Below are positions 1 to 41,284 of a stretch of DNA of 41,284 bases, piece after piece. Every line of letters begins with the position of its first letter. Position 1 is the stretch's first letter. The position numbers and the translations under genes are program-made. The notes beneath the pieces were generated by a model that was not told the DNA's origin, made no database searches, and saw only the letters and a program-made list of their open reading frames with translations. Where the stretch lies: assembly GCA_947585115.1 (NCBI GenBank), contig CANPWW010000014.1, positions 1-41,284 on the forward strand. Direction: 5' to 3'. The DNA is from an uncultured Monoglobus sp. GTDB taxonomy: Bacteria; Bacillota; Clostridia; Monoglobales; Monoglobaceae.

Positions 1-7
1 TTCTCAT
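1..7 (-). CDS. 5' end of a leftward gene leaving the window (partial)
   Basis: Only the ATG (complement of 5-7) and the next codon (AGA) are inside the window, so no product can be named. A gene is inferred because the start is preceded on the minus strand by AAGGAG (complement of 17-22) at normal spacing and by a near-consensus promoter at 29-57. Confidence 0.6.
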
Positions 8-28
8 TTTAACACGCTCCTTGATTTA

Positions 29-57
29 ATTATATCATTCTCTTTTTTGCGTGTCCA
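29..57 (-). promoter_or_regulatory. Sigma-A promoter of the leftward gene at the window edge
   Basis: On the minus strand, TGGACA (complement of 52-57), a 17-bp spacer and TATAAT (complement of 29-34). The start codon at 7 lies about 22 nt downstream of the -10 box, with AAGGAG in between. Confidence 0.75.
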
Positions 58-76
58 CTTTTATTATACAACTTTC

Positions 77-109
77 CTGCGGCTTGTCCGCAGACTGAGG
101 GGGGGGGAA
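77..109. repeat. REP-like hairpin plus G-tract
   Basis: A CTGCGG / CCGCAG stem with a CTTGT loop is followed by ACTGA, a run of nine G and AA, joined directly to a heptamer element at 110. The same arrangement (GC-rich hairpin, ACTGAGGGGGG, AA, heptamers) recurs at about 30609-30637, so this is a dispersed composite repeat and not a chance palindrome. Confidence 0.65.
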
Positions 110-144
110 CTAGTCGCTAGTCCCTATTCCATAGTCCCTACGTT
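110..144 (+). repeat. Five-heptamer element, copy A
   Basis: Five consecutive 7-bp units: CTAGTCG, CTAGTCC, CTATTCC, ATAGTCC, CTACGTT. It is one of five 35-bp elements in the window with this architecture and the terminal unit CTAYGTT. Its right 21 bp are inside the leftward permease gene and encode that protein's last residues NVGTME plus the TAG stop. Confidence 0.75.
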
Positions 145-1002
145 GGTATTGAGCAGCACTATCGCGGCGAAGATCAATATGATTCCCGCCGCGTTTTTTA
201 TTGTCAAGGATTCGTGAAAAATAATGATGCCGGCCAGGGCGGCGACCATAGGCTCCGCGAACGCCAGCACCGACGCCTTGCCCGCGTCGATATTGGCGAG
301 GCCTCCGGTATACAGAACAAACGGCAAAAACGTTGAAAACACGCCAAGACCCAGCGCGGCGGGCGCGCCTCCGTCCGCGATAACCGAGACGATATGGGGC
401 AGTCCCGAAAAAGGCAGCAGCCCCAGCGAGGCCACGGCGAAGGTATAAAATATGATAGTAAACTGAGAATATTTGCGAAGCGCGGCCTTGCCGAATATGC
501 TGTATAGGGCGTAGCCGAAACCCGATCCTATTCCTGTCATAAGCGCGAAAGCGCCGATCCGGCCGCCGGCGAATCCGCTTGCCAACGCGCTGCCCGCGAA
601 GGCGGGAACCAGCGCGATTATCTTTTGCGCTGTTATCTTCTCCCCGAAAAAAACGACGGACATCAGCATGACAAAACACGGCGCGGTATAGAGCAGCACC
701 GACGCCGCGGCAAGGGTCGTGCGCTCGATCGTCAGAAAATAGCACACGTTAAAAAACACTATGCTCAAAAGGCCGCTGCCCAAAAACATCCAAAAGTCGC
801 GGATGCGAACTTTGAGCAGCGAGCGGTCTTTTATCAAAAGAAACAGCCCCATAAGCGCTGCGGTGATCAGACTTCTGGTAAACGTTATCTGTATCGGGCT
901 AAGTCCGCGCGCGTCAAGCGGCCGCGAAAACACGCCGATAAGACCCCAGCCCGTCGCGGCCGCCAGGATCATCGCGGCGGATAAAGCCTTTTTGTCTTTC
1001 AT
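124..1002 (-). CDS. EamA-family drug/metabolite transporter (DMT) permease
   Basis: A 292-residue hydrophobic protein made of two tandem EamA repeats, about ten predicted transmembrane helices. Repeat 1 starts near residue 10 (WGLIGVFSRPL) and repeat 2 near 150 (GIGSGFGYALYSIFGKAAL). The second repeat ends in the typical EPMVAALAGIIIFHESLT segment. The family exports or imports small metabolites across the cytoplasmic membrane; the substrate cannot be read from sequence. The start is supported by GGAGG (complement of 1010-1014) and a perfect promoter at 1055-1083. It is transcribed alone, divergently from yunB. Oddity: the last six residues and the stop codon lie in heptamer repeat copy A, so the native C-terminus has probably been replaced by repeat DNA. 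Confidence 0.9.
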   Translation of the reverse strand: MKDKKALSAAMILAAATGWGLIGVFSRPLDARGLSPIQITFTRSLITAALMGLFLLIKDRSLLKVRIRDFWMFLGSGLLSIVFFNVCYFLTIERTTLAAASVLLYTAPCFVMLMSVVFFGEKITAQKIIALVPAFAGSALASGFAGGRIGAFALMTGIGSGFGYALYSIFGKAALRKYSQFTIIFYTFAVASLGLLPFSGLPHIVSVIADGGAPAALGLGVFSTFLPFVLYTGGLANIDAGKASVLAFAEPMVAALAGIIIFHESLTIKNAAGIILIFAAIVLLNTNVGTME

Positions 1003-23385: not shown

Positions 23386-23413
23386 GTTTTTGCTGTTTGC
23401 TGTTTGCTATGTT
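23386..23413 (+). repeat. Divergent heptamer array (CTGTTTG type)
   Basis: Units GTTTTTG, CTGTTTG, CTGTTTG, CTATGTT. The period (7 bp) and the terminal CTATGTT match the five-heptamer elements, but the internal unit differs. It lies 22 nt upstream of the argS start on the opposite strand. Confidence 0.55.
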
Positions 23414-23490
23414 CCCACCTCCGTCTTTTCGCCTTTGGCGAAAATCCACCTCCTCCCGGGATGAGGCAGGCGGGCGGATAATATCCGCCC
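23414..23490. repeat. REP-like palindromes upstream of argS
   Basis: TTTTCGCC (23426-23433) pairs with GGCGAAAA (23437-23444) over a 3-nt loop. A 19-bp palindrome, GGGCGGATA-A-TATCCGCCC, is at 23472-23490 and recurs exactly at 30503-30521. The stretch also has pyrimidine-rich CCACCTCC repeats. These resemble dispersed non-coding repeats common in gut Clostridia (from memory, not searched). Confidence 0.65.
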
Positions 23491-23495
23491 CTACG

Positions 23496-23530
23496 AACAT
23501 AGTGATTAGTAATTAGCTAATAGTGATTAG
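23496..23530 (-). repeat. Five-heptamer element, copy B (inverted)
   Basis: Read on the minus strand: CTAATCA, CTATTAG, CTAATTA, CTAATCA, CTATGTT. It is inverted relative to copy C at 23580-23614, with 28 of 35 positions matching. The two copies therefore act as terminal inverted repeats of a 119-bp unit. An inner stem, ACGCGG (23539-23544) with CCGCGT (23576-23581), extends the hairpin. Confidence 0.75.
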
Positions 23531-23579
23531 ACGAAAGAACGCGGGGATATATGTTATGTTTTCGATAACTTTTTTCCGC

Positions 23580-23614
23580 GTATTCACTATTCGCTAATCG
23601 CTAATCTCTACGTT
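23580..23614 (+). repeat. Five-heptamer element, copy C
   Basis: Units GTATTCA, CTATTCG, CTAATCG, CTAATCT, CTACGTT. The right 21 bp overlap the 3' end of the leftward ywiB-like gene and encode its last residues NVEISD and the TAG stop. The frame and stop position relative to the element are the same as in copy A. Confidence 0.75.
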
Positions 23615-24016
23615 AACCGTCATGTTGTTTTTTATAAAATTTTGGTTGTCGGCGTCCAGGAGGTAGTTCATTTTGAGAGTGCCGCCGTCCTTGCCGAATT
23701 TGTAGTCGATGTTTTCGGTCGTTACCGCGGCGCCGATCTGGCCGTAGGGTGTGTTCACCAAGCACAGGCTCTTTTCGCCGCTTCTGTAATCCATCTTTGA
23801 CGAGAACCTGCCCTTTCGCGAAACGCTGACTCCGGCGTCGCTGACCTTTATTGTGGTGGTCGTGTCCTCAAAACCGGTCATGGCGCTCTCGTCGTATATT
23901 ATGTATATTTTGTTGTTACGTATGGCGTATCTGCCTCTGGTGTCCAGAGCTATGGTTTCTTCCTCGCCGTCGATCTCCTGAGCGGTGCGAATGGTAATAA
24001 ACGCGTTGTCTTTCAT
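23594..24016 (-). CDS. ywiB: DUF1934 (YwiB-like) protein
   Basis: A 140-residue lipocalin-like beta-barrel protein of the YwiB/DUF1934 family: AFITIRTAQEIDGEEETIALDTRGRYAIRNNKIYIIYDES, then TTIKVSDAGVSVSRKGRFSSKMDYRSGEKSLCLVNTPYGQI and the DYKFGKDGGTLKMNYLLDAD segment. The function is unknown. It lies between murI and argS; a ywiB-argS pairing also occurs in B. subtilis. It is 14 nt downstream of murI, with AAGGAGAC as ribosome binding site. The six C-terminal residues (NVEISD) and the stop come from heptamer copy C, so the native end is probably altered. Confidence 0.85.
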   Translation of the reverse strand: MKDNAFITIRTAQEIDGEEETIALDTRGRYAIRNNKIYIIYDESAMTGFEDTTTTIKVSDAGVSVSRKGRFSSKMDYRSGEKSLCLVNTPYGQIGAAVTTENIDYKFGKDGGTLKMNYLLDADNQNFIKNNMTVNVEISD

Positions 24017-30499: not shown

Positions 30500-30502
30500 T
30501 AC

Positions 30503-30637
30503 GGGCGGATAATATCCGCCCTGCGGGACGTACCCTACAACAAGTATTGCGCCAAATTCGTAGGGGACGGCGCCCTCGACGTTCCATAAGGCGCCCCCTC
30601 GGGGGAGCTGTCGGGCTTTGCCCGACTGAGGGGGGAA
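30503..30637. repeat. Composite REP-like repeat block inside the polyamine cluster
   Basis: It starts with the 19-bp palindrome GGGCGGATA-A-TATCCGCCC (30503-30521, identical to 23472-23490). A GTAGGGGACGGCGCCCTC segment follows. Then comes a CCCCCTCGGGGG stretch with the hairpin GTCGGGC-TTT-GCCCGAC, and ACTGAGGGGGGAA joined to heptamers at 30638. This has the same architecture as 77-110. No gene is present in 30500-30685. Confidence 0.75.
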
Positions 30638-30672
30638 CTATTTACTAATCACTAATCGCTAATAACTACGTT
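30638..30672 (+). repeat. Five-heptamer element, copy D
   Basis: Units CTATTTA, CTAATCA, CTAATCG, CTAATAA, CTACGTT. The last unit is followed at once by AGGAGG (30673-30678), the ribosome binding site of the carboxynorspermidine synthase gene. The element boundary therefore coincides with the start of the translation signal, exactly as in copy E. Confidence 0.8.
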
Positions 30673-30685
30673 AGGAGGAAATCAA

Positions 30686-31903
30686 ATGAGCAGAGCTTTA
30701 ATTATCGGAGCCGGCGGAGTTGCCGGTGTGGCCGCGCACAAGTGCTGCCAAAATTACGAGGTGTTCACCGACATCATGATAGCTAGCCGCACCAAGTCAA
30801 AGTGCGACAGGCTCAAACAGAGCTGTGAGGAATACATGAAAAAAATCGGCGGCAAGACCAATATCGAGACCGCGCGCGTTGATGCCGACAACGTTGACGA
30901 ACTGACCGGGCTTATCGGAATGTACCGCCCCGAGATCGTTATAAACCTGGCCCTGCCTTATCAGGACTTGTCGATCATGGACGCGTGCCTGAGATCGGGC
31001 GTCCACTATCTTGACACCGCCAATTATGAGCCTCCCGACACGGCGAAATTTGAGTATAAATGGCAATGGGCCTACCGCGAAAAGTTCGAAAAAGCGGGAT
31101 TGACCGCGATCTTGGGCAGCGGCTTTGACCCGGGCGTGACCGGAGTTTTTTCGGCGTATGCCATGAAACACGAGTTTGACGAGATAAATTATATAGATAT
31201 TTTAGACTGCAACGGCGGCGACCACGGCTACCCGTTCGCCACCAACTTCAACCCGGAAATAAACATCCGTGAGGTGTCGGCCAACGGCAGCTATTGGGAA
31301 AACGGAAAATGGATCGAGACAAAGCCGATGGAGATCAAGCGCGAGTATGACTTTGAGGGTGTGGGAAAAAAGGACATGTATCTGCTGCACCACGAGGAAC
31401 TGGAGTCGCTGGGCCTCAACATCAAAGGCATAAAGCGCATACGGTTCTTTATGACCTTCGGCCAAAGCTATCTGACGCATTTAAAATGTCTCGAGAATGT
31501 GGGCATGACCTCGATCAAGCCTATTATGTATGAGGGCAAGGAGATAGTTCCGCTGCAGTTTTTGAAGGCCGTGCTGCCCGACCCGGCTTCGCTGGGCCCG
31601 AGAACGGTGGGCAAGACCAACATCGGCTGCATATTCCGCGGCAAAAAGGACGGCAAAGATAAGAACTATTATTTATATAACATCTGCGACCATCAGGAGT
31701 GCTACAAAGAAGTCGGCTCGCAGGCGGTTTCATACACGACCGGAGTGCCCGCCATGATAGGCGCGGCTATGGTACTTACCGGAAAGTGGAAAAAGCCCGG
31801 CGTCTATAACGTTGAGGAAATGGACCCCGACCCGTTCATGGACAGCCTCAACAAGTTCGGCCTCCCATGGAAAGAGAACCGAGATCCCGTATTGGTGGAT
31901 TAA
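30686..31903 (+). CDS. Carboxynorspermidine synthase (saccharopine dehydrogenase family)
   Basis: A 405-residue NAD(P)-dependent enzyme. The Rossmann motif is ALIIGAGGVAGVAAHKC at residues 4-20. It continues IMIASRTKSKCDRLK, NLALPYQDLSIMDACLRSGVHYLDTANYEPPD and ILGSGFDPGVTGVFSAYA, the carboxynorspermidine/carboxyspermidine dehydrogenase (CASDH) branch rather than true saccharopine dehydrogenase. It condenses putrescine (or diaminopropane) with aspartate semialdehyde; NspC then decarboxylates the product to spermidine. nspC, its usual neighbour, is absent here. AGGAGG abuts heptamer repeat copy D. It stays co-directional with speE-speB after a 186-nt repeat block. Confidence 0.85.
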   Translation: MSRALIIGAGGVAGVAAHKCCQNYEVFTDIMIASRTKSKCDRLKQSCEEYMKKIGGKTNIETARVDADNVDELTGLIGMYRPEIVINLALPYQDLSIMDACLRSGVHYLDTANYEPPDTAKFEYKWQWAYREKFEKAGLTAILGSGFDPGVTGVFSAYAMKHEFDEINYIDILDCNGGDHGYPFATNFNPEINIREVSANGSYWENGKWIETKPMEIKREYDFEGVGKKDMYLLHHEELESLGLNIKGIKRIRFFMTFGQSYLTHLKCLENVGMTSIKPIMYEGKEIVPLQFLKAVLPDPASLGPRTVGKTNIGCIFRGKKDGKDKNYYLYNICDHQECYKEVGSQAVSYTTGVPAMIGAAMVLTGKWKKPGVYNVEEMDPDPFMDSLNKFGLPWKENRDPVLVD

Positions 31904-31985: not shown

Positions 31986-32264
31986 ATGCCGGGAGCGACA
32001 ACAAATATAAGTATTCGCATGGATGCCGGGCTCAAGGCTCAGGCCGACGAGTTGTTCGCCGAGCTTGGAATGAATATTTCAACGGCGTTTAACATTTTTG
32101 TCAGACAAGCAATTCGAGAGGGAAGGATTCCTTTTGAAATAACTCTAATGCAGCCTAATCGTGAAACCGTTGAAGCTATGCTTGAAGCCGAGAGGATAGC
32201 CGGTGACCCGTCGGTAAAAGGGTATACCGATTTGGACGAAATGTTTGAGGAATTGAAGAGATGA
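31986..32264 (+). CDS. dinJ: Type II antitoxin, RelB/DinJ family
   Basis: A 92-residue protein with the RelB/DinJ ribbon-helix-helix start TTNISIRMDAGLKAQADELFAELGMNISTAFNIFVRQAIREGRIPFEI. The rest (~60-92) is the acidic toxin-wrapping tail ending YTDLDEMFEELKR. It represses its own promoter and neutralises the YafQ toxin. ATG at 31986 is chosen with GGAGA 9-13 nt upstream; an in-frame ATG at 31977 lies inside the ribosome binding site. It overlaps the toxin gene by 4 nt (ATGA). Confidence 0.92.
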   Translation: MPGATTNISIRMDAGLKAQADELFAELGMNISTAFNIFVRQAIREGRIPFEITLMQPNRETVEAMLEAERIAGDPSVKGYTDLDEMFEELKR

Positions 32265-32548
32265 GCAACAATCCGAAATACATTGTAAAACTGACTTCGC
32301 AGTTTAAAAAGGATTATAAACGCGCTATCAAACGCGGTTTTGATATAGAGTTATTGGAAAATATCGTTAGAATTATAGCCTCGGGTGAAACGCTGCCCGA
32401 GGCATACAGAGATCACAGTCTTTCCGGCAGATGGTCCGGACATCGGGAATGTCACGTAGCGCCCGATTGGCTGCTGATTTACAAAATTGAAAATAATGTT
32501 CTGGTGCTGACCTTGTCCCGTACGGGCAGCCACAGCGATTTGTTTTAA
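32261..32548 (+). CDS. yafQ: Type II toxin, YafQ family mRNA interferase
   Basis: A 95-residue RelE-superfamily ribonuclease that cuts mRNA on the ribosome. H52, H65, D69 and H91 align with the catalytic H50, H63, D67 and H87 of E. coli YafQ, so the toxin looks intact. The motifs are YRDHSLSGRW, GHRECHVAPDWLLIYKI and LTLSRTGSHSDLF. Translation is coupled to the antitoxin by ATGA overlap. Its stop is only 13 nt before the start of a PL11 lyase gene with no visible promoter between, so the lyase may be co-transcribed with the toxin. Confidence 0.93.
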   Translation: MSNNPKYIVKLTSQFKKDYKRAIKRGFDIELLENIVRIIASGETLPEAYRDHSLSGRWSGHRECHVAPDWLLIYKIENNVLVLTLSRTGSHSDLF

Positions 32549-32561
32549 AAGGGAGATTTTT

Positions 32562-35500
32562 ATGAAAAAAAGATTGTTTGGTATCGCTCTTGCGCTGTTT
32601 GTGATTTTTTCGGCGCTGCCTTCGTCAGCGGCCTCCGATGCGGCAGCGGAGCCTCAAAAAGAGCTCATCGGACGCGGCGCGATCGGCGCGGTAAATCCCG
32701 CGGGCGGCGTGTACCTCACGTGGCGCCTGCTTGAAAACGAGCCCTTAGGCAGCGTGAGCTTTAACGTCTACAAAAACGGAGCGCTTCTCGCAAACGTGAA
32801 GAACACCAATTACATCGATGCGGACGGCGCCAAGACTGACGCGTATAATGTTTCGGCCGTGGTCTGCGGAGCGGAGGGCGAGAAGTCGCCCGACATCGCG
32901 ATCCTTGACGGATACGCCGACAAGGGCTACGAAAAGGCGCCCTACGCATATTTTGATATTCCCGTAAACATTCCGCCCGACGGCAACGGAGCGACCTACA
33001 ACGCGCCAGACACAAGCGGCGGTCAGAGCGGCGGCCCGAATGATGTTTCGGTGGGCGATGTGGACGGCGACGGAATTTATGAGATAATCTTAAAGTGGGA
33101 CCCTTCAAATTCAAAGGATAATTCCCAAAACGGCGTGACCGGAAATGTTTATATCGACTGCTATGAGTACGACGGAACACAGCTCTGGCGCATTGATCTG
33201 GGCAGAAATATACGTGCCGGCGCCCACTATACCCAATTTCAGGTATACGACTACGATGGAGACGGCAAGGCGGAAGTCGCGATGCGCACCGCGCCCGGCT
33301 CGAAGGACGGCAGCGGGGCGTACGTGACCGAGGTCGGCGTGAATGACGCGATAAAGAAAGCCGACAACACTAAAACATACATAAATTCAAAGGGTCAGGT
33401 CATAGAAAATCCTGAGTATCTGACGATTTTTAGCGGCGAGACCGGAAAGGCTATGCAGACGATAGAGTACGAGCCCGCGAGAGGCTCGGCGAGCGCCTGG
33501 GGCAAAGACAGCTACGGCGGCCGCTCTGAGCGTTTTCTGGCGGGAACCGCGTATCTTGACGGAGTGCACCCCAGCATGATCTTTGCCAGAGGCTACTATC
33601 AGCGCTCGTCAATGGTTGCCTATGACTGGGACGGCAAGGATCTTAAAAAGCGCTGGCTGCTCGACAGCGGAATGGATACTAAAAATCCGTTCTACGGCCA
33701 GGGCAACCACAATCTGTCGGTGGCAGATATAGACAATGACGGCAAGGACGAGATCGTCTACGGCTCCTGCGCGGTCGACGACGACGGCACGGTGGCGCAT
33801 TCAATGGGCTGGGGCCACGGCGACGCGCTGCATGTCTCGGATTTCGACAACGACGGGAAGCAGGAGATCTTCGCGCCCCTTGAGGAAGAACCCAATTGGG
33901 GAATAGGCTTCCGCGAGGCGGACGGCACCGAGATATGGCACTACAAAGCATCGGACGACGACGGCCGCGGCGCCATGGCGTATTTCAGCCGCAAGTATGG
34001 CGTGCTCGCGTGGGACGGCGCTTTCGGTATAAGAACAATAGACGGAACTCTTATAAATAATAATCCTAAGCAGGACAACGAATGGTCAAACGCCAACTTC
34101 CCGATTTACTGGGACGGTGATTTATGCAGCGAGCATTTTGACGGAAACAGAATAAGCAAGTTTAACGATGACACCGCCTCGTTCGGCAGATTTATGAATT
34201 TTTCCGGGACCGCTTATAACAATACCACCAAAAAGAACCCTTGTCTGCAGGCCGATCTGTTCGGCGACTGGCGCGAGGAGCTGATCCTGAGGCGGGCCGA
34301 CAACGCGGCGCTCAGGGTGATCATGTCGCTTTGTCCGACGGATTATATGTTCACCACATTTCTTCAGGATCACCAGTACAGAATGGCGGTTGCGTGGCAG
34401 AACACGGCCTACAACCAGCCGCCTCACCAGAGTTATTATATAGGCTATGACAAAGACGCCGCTGAGTCGACCGTGAACGTGAAGGACAGCGGCGGCAATC
34501 CCGTTGCAAATGCGTCTGTGACTCTCAGCGGCCCCAATGTGAGGTACGGTCTCACGGGAGCCGACGGCACAGCGGCTTTCAGGGTCGAAAACGGCGATTA
34601 CACGGTTTCGGCGGAGTGCGAAGGATATGTCACAGAGGAAACCGCCGTAAAAGTTGACGGCGCCTCAAAAACGGAGCTCACGCTCGAAAAAGAGGTAAAC
34701 ATAGGCGATATATGGAACTTTGACGATCTCGCGATCGGCAAAACGGTTGAGGACGGCGAGACAGTCTCAAACGAAAACGGGAAAAATATCACTGTAAAAT
34801 TCGGCACCTCGGCTGAGGCGGGCGGAACCGCCCCGTCGATCGAGAGCCGTGACGGCGGCGGTTACCTGAAGCTGACCGACAAGAACGGAAAACAGGACGG
34901 CTGGTCGTATTCGCCCGAGGCTCCGATCGACTATGACAAGCTTGTTATAGAAATTGACTTCACGGTCGGCGAGACCGACAGCGGCGTCCAGCTTCTCAGG
35001 GTGCTTGACAAAAACAACGTTCCCGAGAGTCTGGCCTACAGCGGCTCCGACGGCAGGGCTTTTGATATCATAACAGGCGACGGCACGCTCACTTTCACCG
35101 ACTATCTCTCAAAGGGCAAGAATGATACAAGCGCCAAAACCGCCGCGGTATCGGGATTCAAGCTTTCGGCGAACAAGTGGTACTCGCTGAAGCTGGTATA
35201 TTCAAGAAGCGCCGACAGCGTCAAGGTGTTTACCAAAAACGCCTCGGACACAGCCTACACCCCGAGAGACACGTTTGTGCTCGGCGGCACTTCGCCGAAA
35301 GGAGAGGTGCCCAAGCTCTCGCCAACATCCATTCTCACAAACACCAGAGGCTCGGCGAGCACAAATCTCGGAATAGACAATATATTCATCGGCACGACCG
35401 GAGCGGCTCCGAAACCCCTCGCATACACGATCAACAGCGCCTATGCGTCGGGCAGATTCGTGACCGTCAGCGTCACAAAGAATTTCGATTCGGGCGCCGA

Positions 35501-35696
35501 AAACGACACGCTTATAGCCGCGTCATATAATAAGTACAGCGGCGCTCTAACAGATTTCAATTCGGCTGAGCTTGCTGTGAGCGTCGGTGAGACAAAAGAG
35601 GTCGTCCTCGATCTCACATCTACCGAGACAGACGAGATCTCGGCCTATATCTGGAACGGCTTTGACGAAATAAAGCCGCTCGCGAATAAAAAATAA
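32562..35696 (+). CDS. Secreted rhamnogalacturonan lyase, PL11 family, multimodular
   Basis: A 1044-residue protein. The signal peptide is cleaved near residue 24 (LFVIFSALPSSAAS). The PL11 catalytic domain (~37-628) is an eight-bladed propeller type: GRGAIGAVNPAGGVYLTWRLL at its start, repeated DVDGDGIYEIILKW / DIDNDGKDEIVYGS / DFDNDGKQEIF calcium-type loops, and QPPHQSYYIGYD at its end. It cleaves the alternating rhamnose-galacturonate backbone of rhamnogalacturonan I outside the cell. A carboxypeptidase-regulatory-like beta domain (~633-708), a LamG-like/CBM-like module (~715-945) and a C-terminal module (~953-1044, YTINSAY...AYIWNGFDEIKPL) follow. No LPXTG, SLH or dockerin is seen. GGGAG precedes the start. 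Confidence 0.92.
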   Translation: MKKRLFGIALALFVIFSALPSSAASDAAAEPQKELIGRGAIGAVNPAGGVYLTWRLLENEPLGSVSFNVYKNGALLANVKNTNYIDADGAKTDAYNVSAVVCGAEGEKSPDIAILDGYADKGYEKAPYAYFDIPVNIPPDGNGATYNAPDTSGGQSGGPNDVSVGDVDGDGIYEIILKWDPSNSKDNSQNGVTGNVYIDCYEYDGTQLWRIDLGRNIRAGAHYTQFQVYDYDGDGKAEVAMRTAPGSKDGSGAYVTEVGVNDAIKKADNTKTYINSKGQVIENPEYLTIFSGETGKAMQTIEYEPARGSASAWGKDSYGGRSERFLAGTAYLDGVHPSMIFARGYYQRSSMVAYDWDGKDLKKRWLLDSGMDTKNPFYGQGNHNLSVADIDNDGKDEIVYGSCAVDDDGTVAHSMGWGHGDALHVSDFDNDGKQEIFAPLEEEPNWGIGFREADGTEIWHYKASDDDGRGAMAYFSRKYGVLAWDGAFGIRTIDGTLINNNPKQDNEWSNANFPIYWDGDLCSEHFDGNRISKFNDDTASFGRFMNFSGTAYNNTTKKNPCLQADLFGDWREELILRRADNAALRVIMSLCPTDYMFTTFLQDHQYRMAVAWQNTAYNQPPHQSYYIGYDKDAAESTVNVKDSGGNPVANASVTLSGPNVRYGLTGADGTAAFRVENGDYTVSAECEGYVTEETAVKVDGASKTELTLEKEVNIGDIWNFDDLAIGKTVEDGETVSNENGKNITVKFGTSAEAGGTAPSIESRDGGGYLKLTDKNGKQDGWSYSPEAPIDYDKLVIEIDFTVGETDSGVQLLRVLDKNNVPESLAYSGSDGRAFDIITGDGTLTFTDYLSKGKNDTSAKTAAVSGFKLSANKWYSLKLVYSRSADSVKVFTKNASDTAYTPRDTFVLGGTSPKGEVPKLSPTSILTNTRGSASTNLGIDNIFIGTTGAAPKPLAYTINSAYASGRFVTVSVTKNFDSGAENDTLIAASYNKYSGALTDFNSAELAVSVGETKEVVLDLTSTETDEISAYIWNGFDEIKPLANKK

Positions 35697-35703
35697 TATA
35701 GTT

Positions 35704-35738
35704 CTAATCACTATTCACTAATTACTAATCACTACGTT
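35704..35738 (+). repeat. Five-heptamer element, copy E
   Basis: Units CTAATCA, CTATTCA, CTAATTA, CTAATCA, CTACGTT. AGGAGG (35739-35744) follows without a gap and the ATG is at 35752. This is the same junction as in copy D upstream of an unrelated gene. The left flank differs from copies A and D: no G-tract or hairpin. Confidence 0.8.
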
Positions 35739-35751
35739 AGGAGGTAAAATT

Positions 35752-38700
35752 ATGAAAAAAAGGTTATTGAGTATCGCTATTTCGCTGTGTATGGTGATAA
35801 CAGCGCTGCCGGTTTTCGCAGTTGGCGAAGCTGAGGACGGCACAGCGAATGCCTCGGCTGATCTCGCGGCAAGACAAATGGAGTACCTGAATCGCGGCGG
35901 ATTCGCGGCGAACTTGACCTATGGCGGCGGAGTTTATTTAAGCTGGCGCCTTTTGGGCACCGAGCCGATGGACACGACGTTTAACGTTTACAAAAACGGC
36001 GCGGTTTTGGTTGAGAGCTATGAGCTTACAAATTACACCGACCCGGCGGGAACGGCGGATGACAAATATTCCGTCGCGCCTGTAATAGGCGGCGTCGAGG
36101 GTGCGAAAAGCGAAGAGTTCCCGATGCTGAACGGAATTCGAGACAAGGATTGGAAAAATTCGCCCTACGCCTATTTTGACATTCCCGTGCAGATACCGCC
36201 GCTTAACACTGCCAAAAGCTATGAGGCAAACGATGCCTCGGTGGGTGATGTGGACGGCGACGGCGAATACGAGATAATACTCAAATGGGAACCCGATGAC
36301 GCCAAAGACAGCGCCTCCGGCGGTGTCACCGACCGCGTGTATCTTGACTGCTATGAGATGGACGGCACAATGCTTTGGCGGATCGATCTGGGCAGAAACA
36401 TCAGAGCCGGCCAGCACTACACTCAGTTTCAGGTTTTTGATTATGACGGAGACGGCAAGGCCGAGATGGCGGTCAAGACTGCGCCCGGCTCGATCGACGG
36501 CAGGGGCAACTATGTGTCCGACGCGGGAAACACCGATGAGATCAGGAATACCAACAACGAGGCGAGCTATATAGGTTCAAACGGCCACATAACGGGCGGC
36601 CCCGAGTATCTCACCATATTTAACGGAGAGAGCGGCGCGGCAATGCAGACGATAAACTATCACGCGCCGGTCGGAAACGTGCGCGACTGGGGAGACAGCG
36701 ATTATAACCGTTCGGACAGATATTTGGCGGGAACCGCGTATCTTGACGGCGTGCATCCCAGCCTGATCGAGTGCCGCGGATATTACGGAAAATCCGTTGT
36801 GGCCGCTTATACGTGGGACGGAAAAGACCTCAAGCAGAGCTGGATCATAGACAGCACAAGCAATTCTGACAATGATTTCTACGGTCAGGGCAATCATAAC
36901 CTTTCGGTCGCAGACCTTGATAACGACGGCAAAGACGAGATAATTTACGGCTCGGCGGCGCTTGACGACAACGGCAAAGTCTTGTGGTCGGCAAAGAACT
37001 CAAGCGGCAGAAAGCTGGGCCACGGCGACGCGCTGCACGTGTCCGACTTTGACAACGACGGTGAGCAGGAAGTTTTCAAAGTCCTCGAGGACAGCCCGAC
37101 GTGGGGCAGAGTGTTCATAAACGGCTCCGATGGCAAGATCATCTGGTACGAGACCACCACCGGCGACGACGGCCGAGGCATCATGGACTATTTCAGCAAG
37201 CAGTACGGCGTGCTGGCATGGGACTCCGGCCTTAACACCAGAACTATGAGCGGCGAGATAGTTAATTTCGGTTCATACAACTCGAGAAATGAGTTGGTCA
37301 CCGTGCAGGACGGACAATATCCCAACTTTGCGATCTATTGGGACGGCGATCTGTGCAGAGAGCATTTCAGCGAAGGCAGACTGAGCAAATGGAACGACGG
37401 CGAATATAGGGTAAATGACTACAATAAACAGCCCGCTTTTGATAAAAACGGCGATCCGTTGATAAACAAGGGCGGTCTCAGCCGTCTCTGGTCGACATGG
37501 ACTTCAAATCCCGTTTCTACAAACAACAGCACCAAAGCCGTTCCCTGCCTTCAGGCGGATCTGTTCGGCGACTGGCGCGAGGAGCTTGTGCTGAGGCACA
37601 GCGACAATACCGCGTTGAGAGTGTTCACATCACTTACGCCCAGCGATTATAAATTCACAACGTTTATGCACGACAGCCAGTACCGCTGCGCTATAGCATG
37701 GCAGAACACCGCGTATAACCAGCCGCCTCACCAGAGCTATTATATCGGCTATGATAAAAAAGGTGATTATGTTCAGCCGAATATCTATGTCAAGGATCTT
37801 GATCCAGAGGTTGTGTTCACCGTGACGGATACTGCCGGCAATCCCGCGGCGGGCGTCAGCGTGAGCATCGGCGAAACATCCAAGGTCACGGACAAAGACG
37901 GCGTTGTCTCGCTCAGGATCCCGGCGGGAACATACACATACACGGCGGATTCCGAAAACTATAACGTTGTCACCGGCGAGATAACGGTCGCCTCAGGACA
38001 GACAAACACCAAATCTATCCGGCTCGTTGAGATCCCCGACAGCGTTATCACGGTAACAAGCGGCGGCAGCCCGGTGTCGGGCGCGGCGGTCACGATTAAC
38101 AAAAAGACCGTCAAGAGCGGAGCGGACGGCAAAATAACCATAAAGCTCCGCGCGGGCGAGTATGACTACACCGCCGTATGCCGCAAATATAACACAAAGA
38201 CAGACAAGCTGACGGTCGCCGAGAGCGGCTCGACCGATCTTTCAATCGAATTGGAAGCCATAGACTATGTATACGACAGCGATAAAGACACAAACGGCAG
38301 CAAATTCGTATACAGCGGCGACGGAGCCGCGCTTTCGTTCAGCGGCGGACAGTGGACCTTCAACCAGAACAGCACCGACGGCGGCAGAAAATTCGGCGGT
38401 GACTTTGACATGTCGGACGGCGGCAATATGACCTTTGAGATGACATACAACACAGGCGGCGTTAAGGACTCGTCAGGTGATTGGAAGTGGGCCGGAAGAG
38501 CGTATACCCACCACATTGAGTTCCTTGACTACTACGGCAAGGTTCTGCTGGGAATAAGCCAGGAATATAAGGAAACAGGCGCGCAGGAGGTTCAGTATTA
38601 TACCGGCACCAAGTCGAAAACCGCCGTTAAAACAGGAACGGTTGTCGGCGGCCCCAACATCACGGCCCGCAGCGCTTCGACATGGACGATAACGCTGAAC

Positions 38701-40137
38701 GCCGACCTTAAAAACAAAAAAGCCGAGCTGCGTCTTATGGACGAGGCGGGCGAAAACGGATATATAATCAGCGATATTCCGATCGACGTTACCTCGTTCT
38801 CAAGAGTTGAGATCGGCTCGACTGCCTCGGGCAATGTCACTTGGTCGCCCAGAGTCAGCAAGGTTCTCTATAAATCGGACTGCGTAAATAATTCGACGCC
38901 CGCGCCTCCGCCGCCAACGCTTGCCCCGACACCCACGCCCACTCCGATTCCCATGAAGGGTGAGACATGGAACTTCAATAATATAGACGAGGCGGCAACA
39001 TATGAAGACGGCGCGAAGATCGCAAACGAAAACGGAGAGTCGCTGACCGTGAACTATTCAACAAAAAATACGGCTCCATCAATTGCAAAGAGAGCCGACG
39101 GAGATAACTATTTCGCGATCAATGATAAGGGCGCCGGTCAGGACGGCTGGACATACACACCCGAAAGCCCGATCGACTCCGAGCTTATCGTAGTTGAAGA
39201 GGAGTTTAAAATGGGTGACGCCGATAAGGACACGGTACTGCTGAGATTATATGATAATAAGAACGCAAGCACGAGCAATACATATACCGATAAAAATGAC
39301 GGCAGAGCCTTTGAGATAAAGACCGGTTCGGGCAATCTGAAATTCAGTGATTACTTCTCAAAGGGAAGCAGCGACACCAAGGGCCTTGATCAGGACGTTT
39401 CGGGCTTTACCTTTGAAAAGGATAAGTGGTACGGTGTTAAAGTCGAATACGCCAAAGCGGATAACAGCGTGACGGTCTACACAAAGCCTGACGGCGGCGC
39501 GTATACCAAGAGAAACACGTTCACGCTCGGCTCCGGAACAACAACCAAAGGCGAGGTTCCGGCTTTGGCGCCCACCGGATTCGCGTGCTCCACGCGAGGA
39601 AGCGCGGCAAATGTCTTGGGAATTGACAATGTTTATATAGGTTACGCGGCAAGCGAGCCCGACCCGACTGCCACTCCGGGAACAGTTGAACCCACGGAGA
39701 CGCCGAGCGCAAGCGAGCCTACGGAGACACCGAGCGTAACCGAGCCTACGGAGACACCGTGCGTAACCGAGCCCACGGAGACGCCGAGCGCAAGTGAGCA
39801 GCCCGGCGAGACGCCGTCCGCGTCCGAGGCTCCAAAGCCGGAGTACGCCTACACGATCAACAGCGTGACGCCGTCGGTCGAGGGCGAGACGAGAAGCGTC
39901 AATGTGAACATCACAAAGAACTTTGACGCGGGCGATGATAATAAGCTGTTTGTCGCCTCATACAGTTCGGACGAGATAATGACCGCGGTAGGGCTCGATG
40001 ATATTGAGGCCGAGATCGGCGAGACGATTGATATAAACATCCCAATCGCGTACTTGGACGGCGACGTAGTGCTTGCCTATGTATGGAACGGCCTGAGCGA
40101 GATCAAGCCGCTCACGGACCCGTACAAAATGAAATAA
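35752..40137 (+). CDS. Large secreted rhamnogalacturonan lyase, PL11 family
   Basis: A 1461-residue paralogue of the preceding lyase, with a signal peptide ending near 24 (VITALPVFAVG). The PL11 domain spans ~45-668: RGGFAANLTYGGGVYLSWRLL, DVDGDGEYEIILKWEPDD, DNDGKDEIIYGSAAL, QPPHQSYYIGYD. Two regulatory-like beta domains follow (~686-757, ~764-835), then a ~200-residue unknown beta module (~838-1042). A Pro/Thr linker leads to a LamG-like module (~1073-1299) paired with that of the first lyase, a 9-residue repeat linker (~1313-1358) and the shared terminal module (~1364-1461, YAYTINSV...AYVWNGLSEIKPL). It lacks anchoring signals. AGGAGG abuts heptamer copy E. A terminator follows. Confidence 0.92.
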   Translation: MKKRLLSIAISLCMVITALPVFAVGEAEDGTANASADLAARQMEYLNRGGFAANLTYGGGVYLSWRLLGTEPMDTTFNVYKNGAVLVESYELTNYTDPAGTADDKYSVAPVIGGVEGAKSEEFPMLNGIRDKDWKNSPYAYFDIPVQIPPLNTAKSYEANDASVGDVDGDGEYEIILKWEPDDAKDSASGGVTDRVYLDCYEMDGTMLWRIDLGRNIRAGQHYTQFQVFDYDGDGKAEMAVKTAPGSIDGRGNYVSDAGNTDEIRNTNNEASYIGSNGHITGGPEYLTIFNGESGAAMQTINYHAPVGNVRDWGDSDYNRSDRYLAGTAYLDGVHPSLIECRGYYGKSVVAAYTWDGKDLKQSWIIDSTSNSDNDFYGQGNHNLSVADLDNDGKDEIIYGSAALDDNGKVLWSAKNSSGRKLGHGDALHVSDFDNDGEQEVFKVLEDSPTWGRVFINGSDGKIIWYETTTGDDGRGIMDYFSKQYGVLAWDSGLNTRTMSGEIVNFGSYNSRNELVTVQDGQYPNFAIYWDGDLCREHFSEGRLSKWNDGEYRVNDYNKQPAFDKNGDPLINKGGLSRLWSTWTSNPVSTNNSTKAVPCLQADLFGDWREELVLRHSDNTALRVFTSLTPSDYKFTTFMHDSQYRCAIAWQNTAYNQPPHQSYYIGYDKKGDYVQPNIYVKDLDPEVVFTVTDTAGNPAAGVSVSIGETSKVTDKDGVVSLRIPAGTYTYTADSENYNVVTGEITVASGQTNTKSIRLVEIPDSVITVTSGGSPVSGAAVTINKKTVKSGADGKITIKLRAGEYDYTAVCRKYNTKTDKLTVAESGSTDLSIELEAIDYVYDSDKDTNGSKFVYSGDGAALSFSGGQWTFNQNSTDGGRKFGGDFDMSDGGNMTFEMTYNTGGVKDSSGDWKWAGRAYTHHIEFLDYYGKVLLGISQEYKETGAQEVQYYTGTKSKTAVKTGTVVGGPNITARSASTWTITLNADLKNKKAELRLMDEAGENGYIISDIPIDVTSFSRVEIGSTASGNVTWSPRVSKVLYKSDCVNNSTPAPPPPTLAPTPTPTPIPMKGETWNFNNIDEAATYEDGAKIANENGESLTVNYSTKNTAPSIAKRADGDNYFAINDKGAGQDGWTYTPESPIDSELIVVEEEFKMGDADKDTVLLRLYDNKNASTSNTYTDKNDGRAFEIKTGSGNLKFSDYFSKGSSDTKGLDQDVSGFTFEKDKWYGVKVEYAKADNSVTVYTKPDGGAYTKRNTFTLGSGTTTKGEVPALAPTGFACSTRGSAANVLGIDNVYIGYAASEPDPTATPGTVEPTETPSASEPTETPSVTEPTETPCVTEPTETPSASEQPGETPSASEAPKPEYAYTINSVTPSVEGETRSVNVNITKNFDAGDDNKLFVASYSSDEIMTAVGLDDIEAEIGETIDINIPIAYLDGDVVLAYVWNGLSEIKPLTDPYKMK
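39688..39825 (+). repeat. 27-bp in-frame tandem repeat coding a Pro/Thr/Glu linker
   Basis: Four 9-codon units EPTETP-(S/C)-(A/V)-(S/T) at 39688, 39715, 39742 and 39769, then a variant EQPGETPSAS to 39825. It encodes a flexible linker between the LamG-like and terminal modules of the second lyase. One unit carries an unusual Cys. Confidence 0.9.
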
Positions 40138-41123: not shown

Positions 41124-41259
41124 GACAATAAAATTTTATTTAAGTAGGAAAAATAAAAACACCGCCAAAGTTTCATGCCTGCTTATAATAAAAAAGCCGC
41201 CCATAACGGCAATGTCATTAAGTTAAAAAAGACTAATAATGATTAAATAGTATACAGGG

Positions 41260-41284
41260 AGAGTGAAAATTGCGATTTCACTCT
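41260..41284. other. Inverted repeat at the right window edge
   Basis: AGAGTGAAA (41260-41268) pairs with TTTCACTCT (41276-41284) over a 7-nt loop. It may continue past the window. The preceding 41124-41259 is AT-rich with no gene that I can see. Confidence 0.5.

Follow-up and report, generated by a model that had tools for sequence, protein, structure and literature searches.

A 35-bp block of five heptamers at gene boundaries in Monoglobus and its association with intergenic hairpin modules

The question raised by this locus is what kind of element a block of five heptamers may be when it recurs, with a fixed end, at the edges of different genes. The locus is a stretch of 41,284 nucleotides (the whole of it hereafter called the window) from an uncultured Monoglobus sp., corresponding to contig 14 (CANPWW010000014.1) of a 2.34-Mb, 125-contig assembly (GCA_947585115.1). 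A preliminary description, made from the sequence alone, had reported five copies of a 35-bp array ending in CTACGTT or CTATGTT, and had read them as a mobilised or recombination-defined unit with a precise boundary. A comparison of twelve genomes of the genus, which share 65-97% identity over common loci, led us to a somewhat different view: the array, or pentaheptamer, is on balance probably a joint that stays constant within a family of intergenic mosaic repeats, specific to Monoglobus and resembling bacterial interspersed mosaic elements (BIMEs).

Results

The array is a dispersed 35-bp block

Both inspection of the sequence and a pattern search recovered the five copies with the positions and strands originally reported, each made of five 7-mers (cf. 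Table 1). The pattern, four CTANTNN units followed by CTAYGTT with up to two mismatches, matched exactly these five sites in the window and none in 100 dinucleotide-preserving shuffles. As described before, the last unit was CTACGTT in four copies and CTATGTT in the inverted copy 2. Copy 1 belongs to a second, CTAGTCC-like subfamily and has one unit reading ATAGTCC, while the first unit of copy 3 reads GTATTCA because a hairpin module terminates within it. One strict pattern retrieved 77 sites in the whole host genome, with controls giving 0 and 1 sites, the latter in the reversed control. Among the genomes searched, the array family is almost restricted to Monoglobus: the pattern was abundant in eight of the twelve genomes, rare (1-5 sites) in three and absent from the single-contig genome G008, and outside the genus two genomes had low counts, one from a different genus of the family, the other a further Clostridia genome (291 sampled).

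Array anatomy was read from tiles covering 1.10 Mb of the host (~47%), which held 92 arrays ending in CTAYGTT, 68 of them with exactly five units, and from a full set of 365 non-redundant array contexts, orthologs included, drawn from about a dozen genomes (2.4 Mb). In the full set 270 arrays (74%) had five units, the remainder having three (36), four (41), six (14) or seven (4). The units run roughly as CTAATCR/CTATTCR, CTATTCG, CTAATCA, CTAATCA, CTAYGTT in subfamily A, and as CTAGTCC, CTAGTTC, CTATTCC, CTAGTCC, CTAYGTT in subfamily B. They are position-specific at their fourth base, and shuffling the units within arrays reached the observed value in 0 of 1000 trials for A and likewise in 0 of 1000 for B. 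Since the order of units was never matched by permutation, the block must be inherited as 35 bp, and the copies descend from one 35-bp ancestor with two subfamilies. Thus, the non-interchangeable units, the five-unit mode and the dispersal of copies bear out the earlier view that the array is a dispersed block and not a free-running microsatellite.

The array has next to no secondary structure: its mean minimum free energy (MFE) was -0.99 kcal/mol, compared with -1.06 for shuffled sequences and -17.7 for the 60 nt to its left. Its reverse strand reads AACGTAG in most copies and AACATAG in others, with no hairpin after it. A search of the window against Rfam at gathering thresholds matched no family, and a literature search on Monoglobus repeats returned nothing relevant.

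The CTAYGTT end lies at gene boundaries

The placement of the copies at gene boundaries turned out to be not only right but sharper than had been claimed, for it is the CTAYGTT end that forms the boundary end. On this side, a Shine-Dalgarno sequence and an open frame of 60 codons or more were found next to 65 arrays (36 distinct starts, as judged by their first residues), compared with 2 on the other side, and the offset between the end and the Shine-Dalgarno sequence was 0-1 in 41 of the 65. Some of the adjacent starts resemble those of EF-G, DnaK and lumazine synthase. Arrays abutting a Shine-Dalgarno sequence are mostly of subfamily A (54/57), and 36 of them have no recognised module on the left. 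In the window, copy 4 directly abuts the AGGAGG of a saccharopine-dehydrogenase-like gene (30686-31903), and copy 5, preceded by a stop codon 7 bases before it, directly abuts that of a rhamnogalacturonan-lyase gene (35752-40137).

The same end also reaches into the 3' ends of genes. The CTAYGTT end lay within the 3' end of a coding sequence in 43 of 132 antisense contexts, and the unit-1 end in 13 of 177 contexts at 3' ends, both figures being approximate as they rely on simple open reading frame (ORF) calls. Such arrays can provide the stop codon; the CTACGTT end of copy 1 enters the 3' end of an EamA-family transporter gene, which takes its stop (TAG at 124-126) from the array, and the end of copy 3 overlaps the 3' end of a DUF1934 gene (23594-24016, minus strand) and forms the C-terminus of its protein. 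When read antisense, from the CTAYGTT side, 268 of 270 arrays contained stops in all three frames, 263 of them within 21 nt (shuffled sequences, 23%); on the sense strand, toward the downstream gene, all-frame stops were present in just 38 of the 270.

The differing right flanks noted in the window have their counterpart genome-wide, where CTAYGTT joins many different flanks at a precise position. The junctions GTT|CCCACC, GTT|GACCCC, GTT|GACTGAG, GTT-C-GTAG, GTT|C(A/G/T)CTAAT and GTT|AGGAGG are recurrent, and 118 of 186 unclassified flanks have G as their first base. The CTAYGTT end is therefore a junction that is precise, in most cases stable and frequently placed at the edge of a gene.

Hairpin modules are docked mainly at the unit-1 end

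The hairpin modules found beside the arrays were given the labels M1, M2, M3, M4 and M6, which were coined in this analysis. M1 is GGCGCCCCCTCGGGGGAGCTGTC-loop-GACTGAGGGGGG; M2 denotes GTAG-type repetitive extragenic palindromes (REPs) such as GTAGGGGCGGATATTATCCGCCC; M3 is about 50 bp long (CGCGGG..TCTCCGCG); M4 is CCCACCTCCGTC-loop-..CCTCCTCCCGGGAGGAGG; and M6 is M1-like, on the opposite strand. Modules and arrays form recurrent intergenic composites, namely A-M4-M1-A, REP-array and M3-array. The joints between them are regular: 51 of 53 M3 hairpins end at the T of unit 1, and GTAG REPs within 8 bp of an array share its strand in ratios of 27:1 (left) and 17:3 (right), so that REPs beside arrays have one orientation overall (44:4), yet M4-M1 pairs are inverted. 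A one-base link (GTT-C/T-GTAG) was present in 16 of the 17 same-strand REPs on the right. In the host, a REP lay no more than 6 bp to the left of 11 of the 92 arrays, with 0.05-0.4 expected, and REP counts were high in array-bearing genomes and zero in the array-free G008. In the window, copies 2 and 3 point outwards from a single hairpin (M3).

As a separate observation, a further repeat of ~120 bp (GTCCGCTCACGTTAATGATTTGTGGCCTCG..GCGGCTCCGGCCGCAG) resides within the loops of hairpin modules (L044:2680-2800, L066:13075-13195 and others), i.e. as a repeat inside a repeat.

Arrays are mostly held in place while modules are exchanged

Among 186 orthologous pairs with at least 90% flank identity, the array was present in the same orientation in 159 and there was none in 22, the conserved share being biased upward because many loci were fetched for the presence of an array. 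Presence at identical positions in relatives had been named beforehand as an outcome contradicting mobility, and the arrays are indeed mostly found at the same place. The number of units was equal in 97 of the 159 pairs and different in 62, hence its supposed constancy is a strong mode and not a rule.

The window copies illustrate this behaviour. Copy 5, a solo array, occupies the same place in the host, G009, G002, G004 and G011, and also in G003 with an altered left flank, and is split in G006 and G010 by a longer inserted repeat. At the copy 4 site, the array is kept in eight genomes, without any module in G009, G002 and G004 and with different modules on the left in others, and G005 and G008 have short ordinary spacers. 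At the copy 3 site, modules are replaced and the upstream units change between A and B types, but the flank and the final two units do not vary. Copy 1 is common to five species; in G003, G006 and G010, which do not have it, the EamA gene ends LLNIPLGK..TSG* and a different gene lies downstream, and we therefore place copy 1 at a rearrangement junction. At other orthologous sites, arrays change subfamily while the right flank stays identical (L012 vs L135 and L014 vs L144 among others), which shows that copies recombine with one another.

What is present or absent in the clean pairs is a whole composite or a hairpin module. Between L155 (G011) and L018 (host), a composite ends exactly at CTACGTT, the empty site reading cctttcgtt|agtaac, and between L068 (host) and L159 an additional module-plus-array stands behind the resident array. 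L015 (host), compared with L260 and L212, revealed a 61-bp hairpin with CTACGTT and a 6-bp duplication, TTTATT, on either side; L086 vs L115 differ by a REP pair at unit 1 with an 8-bp duplication (CTAATCGC); and L150 vs L019 by M3 at the T of unit 1. Duplications of 6-12 bp flank some inserted hairpin modules. The unit-1 end is where hairpin modules come and go; across species, copies 1, 3, 4 and 5 stay fixed while the modules beside them turn over. Several of the differences listed can equally be read as deletions. The orthologous comparisons yielded no solo 35-bp array inserted with clean flanks or a target duplication. Of the unit proposed in the preliminary description, the precise boundary has stood, while a stand-alone mobile 35-bp unit leaving clean empty sites found no support.

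Candidate machinery

The host has genes for REP-associated tyrosine transposases (RAYTs), one of them at L018. It matches NF047646 (REP_Tyr_transpos) with an E-value of 2e-16; its score of 60 bits does not reach the curated cut-off of 80, but HxH and catalytic-region motifs are visible. The RAYT genes fall under both the Pfam Y1_Tnp and the NCBIfam cut-offs, and a genome search with PF01797 misses them. A RAYT was detected in 7 of the 12 genus genomes. Two of the genes, L018:11641-12174 and that of L235 (host contig C60), carry in-frame GTAG-type REPs in their coding sequence (peptides VGDGALDVP and VGADIIRP).

Several candidate explanations of the array were discarded. A RAYT as the mover of the array itself was rejected, as it was not found in the array-rich G002 and G004 and an array is near just 2 of 14 RAYT loci. 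So was an IS200/IS605 transposase (Y1_Tnp, PF01797) as the driver, with none above threshold in the host and hits in 2 of 12 genus genomes. A footprint of repeated 7-8 bp target duplications has one suggestive case (L086 vs L115) and leaves the shared 35-bp block unexplained, and YGTT as an insertion target has one clean case (L155 vs L018) and was not seen at other empty sites.

Discussion

A probable joint module in an intergenic mosaic

If the array is the joint of a mosaic family, as we consider probable, it would have multiplied inside REP/hairpin composites and been shuffled by recombination between copies, being otherwise held in place. Its repeated CTA units would be favoured acceptor sites for REP hairpins, which would attach mainly at the unit-1 end, and this preference might be due to a RAYT enzyme joining strands at C|T. 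In Escherichia coli, TnpA-REP cuts at C|T near the REP and is active on the REP strand only (PMC8266576). Since C|T recurs every 7 bases in the arrays and the REPs beside them are docked in one strand orientation, joining by a RAYT is a reasonable inference for docking. What may allow junctions at gene boundaries to persist is that the array forms hardly any structure and halts antisense translation in all frames within about 21 nt.

Several points weigh against this interpretation. RAYT was not detected in the array-rich genomes G004 (96% complete) and G002 (98%), and docking by a RAYT there can therefore only be past activity; the RAYT genes that were detected score under the NF047646 curated cut-off; and joining at C|T is derived from the junctions together with the E. 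coli biochemistry (PMC8266576). The birth of an array at an empty site was not caught at high identity. The most surprising point is the near-zero offset to the Shine-Dalgarno sequence, which the joint does not fully account for: it is sharper than would be expected from recombination plus selection, and may point to a translational role or to a choice of target.

In a translational role, the array would be a leader element: lying just ahead of the Shine-Dalgarno sequence, it would offer a standby or binding site to an RNA-binding or ribosome-associated protein (S1, Csp or Csr-like), and its mobility would be secondary. The 65 one-way abutments with mostly 0-1 offset, the predominance of subfamily A and the frequent lack of a left module among them, the low predicted structure of the array RNA and the position of copy 5 common to several species all suit such a leader, as does the same geometry in Beggiatoaceae repeats (PMC4679880). 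However, the majority of arrays have other positions, many of them between hairpin modules or antisense at the 3' ends of genes, the downstream genes share no common function, and the outgroups G005 and G008 manage without the array at the copy 4 site, and we regard a leader as a tentative and rather doubtful explanation. A further reading is an undescribed dispersal process that would set the 35-bp module, by its CTAYGTT end, into the final codons of a gene or immediately ahead of a Shine-Dalgarno sequence, the CTA units then serving as acceptors for RAYT-driven REP attachment; to this we assign a low probability. Unlikely as well is a one-ended mobile element, whose machinery would cut after CTAYGTT, leave the other end variable and carry adjacent hairpin modules along. 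The precise joining of CTAYGTT to many unrelated right flanks, its recurrent junctions, the excess of G as the first flanking base and the clean composite difference between L155 and L018 are what it would produce; but the left boundary, too, mostly stands at five units, none of the candidate enzymes was found in every array-rich genome, and the clean events are few and deletions between repeats yield identical pictures.

About a dozen outward-facing pairs of arrays around one hairpin (e.g. L048 15100-15216, 117 bp; L067 7675-7794; window 23496-23614), with CTAYGTT ends pointing outwards to genes, resemble a miniature inverted-repeat transposable element (MITE) having the arrays as 35-bp terminal inverted repeats (array - hairpin - inverted array) and solo arrays as remnants. 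Such pairs are nevertheless a minority (about 12 among the 92 host arrays), no target duplication was seen on reading their flanks, and solo arrays are common in tight intercistronic gaps, which makes a MITE very improbable. Ordinary slippage of a microsatellite with a degenerate last unit could explain the unequal unit numbers of close orthologs and the occurrence of doublets and of 3-7-unit arrays. It is already contradicted by the five-unit mode, the non-interchangeable units, the two subfamilies, the end common to unrelated loci and the lack of long arrays, and has next to no probability left.

Comparison with known repeats

The closest described analogue is the system of TAACTGA heptamer repeats of Beggiatoaceae, direct repeats of two to six identical units, variable in number, which end near a start codon, mostly without a Shine-Dalgarno sequence, and for which a role involving an RNA-binding or ribosome-associated protein has been proposed (MacGregor 2015, PMC4679880). 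Common to both are the oriented arrays beside downstream starts (here 65 vs 2), the overlap with gene ends and the restriction to certain lineages (PMC4679880). The present arrays differ in (i) their unit (CTAATCA/CTAGTCC), (ii) a five-unit mode with non-identical units and a fixed last CTAYGTT abutting the Shine-Dalgarno sequence, (iii) their mixing with hairpin REPs, in Clostridia, and (iv) all-frame stops that lie antisense in nearly all arrays and toward the downstream gene in few (268 and 38 of 270, respectively).

With the REP/BIME and RAYT (TnpA-REP) systems, the Monoglobus family shares RAYT genes, GTAG-tagged palindromes in intergenic mosaics and a fixed strand of REP docking (PMC2817692, PMC8266576). 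Unlike a REP, the heptamer array is no palindrome and has no hairpin after GTAG; it is a joint between palindromes and not the REP itself. As in BIMEs, REP hairpins occur between genes in regular combinations with short linker motifs. In neisserial intergenic mosaic elements (dRS3/RS), a short constant repeat bounds exchangeable intergenic modules and is linked to recombination; its sequence is unrelated to the heptamer array, and to our knowledge neither a heptamer structure nor anchoring at gene boundaries is a feature of it. Cyanobacterial STRR (short tandemly repeated repetitive) sequences are dispersed heptameric repeats in arrays of variable length, for which we know of no fixed terminal unit or hairpin partners.

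With Monoglobus, oriented heptamer arrays at the starts of genes are known from two unrelated lineages, the other being that of the unexplained TAACTGA repeats, and here the arrays are tied to a RAYT/REP mosaic. Being present, absent, split or switched across the twelve genomes, they offer a test case for the growth of intergenic mosaics. The same genomes allow tests of why hairpins attach beside arrays in one orientation, and of whether gene edges tolerate insertion owing to the lack of structure and the many stops of the block.

Features of the window

Table 1 Array copies, adjoining modules and the EamA gene in the window.
Feature	Position	Strand	Remarks
Hairpin module, right-hand part, M1-type (..CTGCGGCTTGTCCGCAGACTGAGGGGGGGGGAA)	59..109	+	docked at unit-1 end of copy 1; basis, sequence comparison
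Array copy 1	110..144	+	subfamily B: CTAGTCG CTAGTCC CTATTCC ATAGTCC CTACGTT
EamA-family transporter gene	124..1002	-	last codons (NVGTME*) come from array copy 1
Degenerate three-unit array	23393..23413	+	CTGTTTG CTGTTTG CTATGTT; followed by M4 (CCCACCTCCGTC..)
Hairpin module M4 (CCCACCTCCGTC-stem loop-CCACCTCCTCCCGGGATGAGGC)	23414..23468	+	
GTAG-type REP (GTAGGGGCGGATATTATCCGCCC)	23472..23494	-	1 base off the CTATGTT end of copy 2
Array copy 2	23496..23530	-	CTAATCA CTATTAG CTAATTA CTAATCA CTATGTT
Hairpin module M3 (..GAACGCGGGG..TTTTTTCCGC)	23531..23579	+	between copies 2 and 3
Array copy 3	23580..23614	+	GTATTCA CTATTCG CTAATCG CTAATCT CTACGTT
REP + hairpin module composite	30500..30637	+	between arginase-family gene and copy 4
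Array copy 4	30638..30672	+	CTATTTA CTAATCA CTAATCG CTAATAA CTACGTT
Array copy 5, solo	35704..35738	+	ends CTACGTT

Both ends of the window (1-80 and 41184-41284) are repeats common to other contig ends of the assembly, which indicates that this contig breaks at the mosaic repeats. A small ORF at 32264-32490, YafQ/RelE-type toxin-like by eye, is precisely missing in G010, with a 3-bp microhomology, and partly in G006. The region 32562-40137 holds two adjacent genes, each for a family 11 rhamnogalacturonan lyase, which is consistent with a pectin-degrading host, and a 27-bp tandem repeat within a rhamnogalacturonan-lyase gene (39694-39793) varies in length among relatives.
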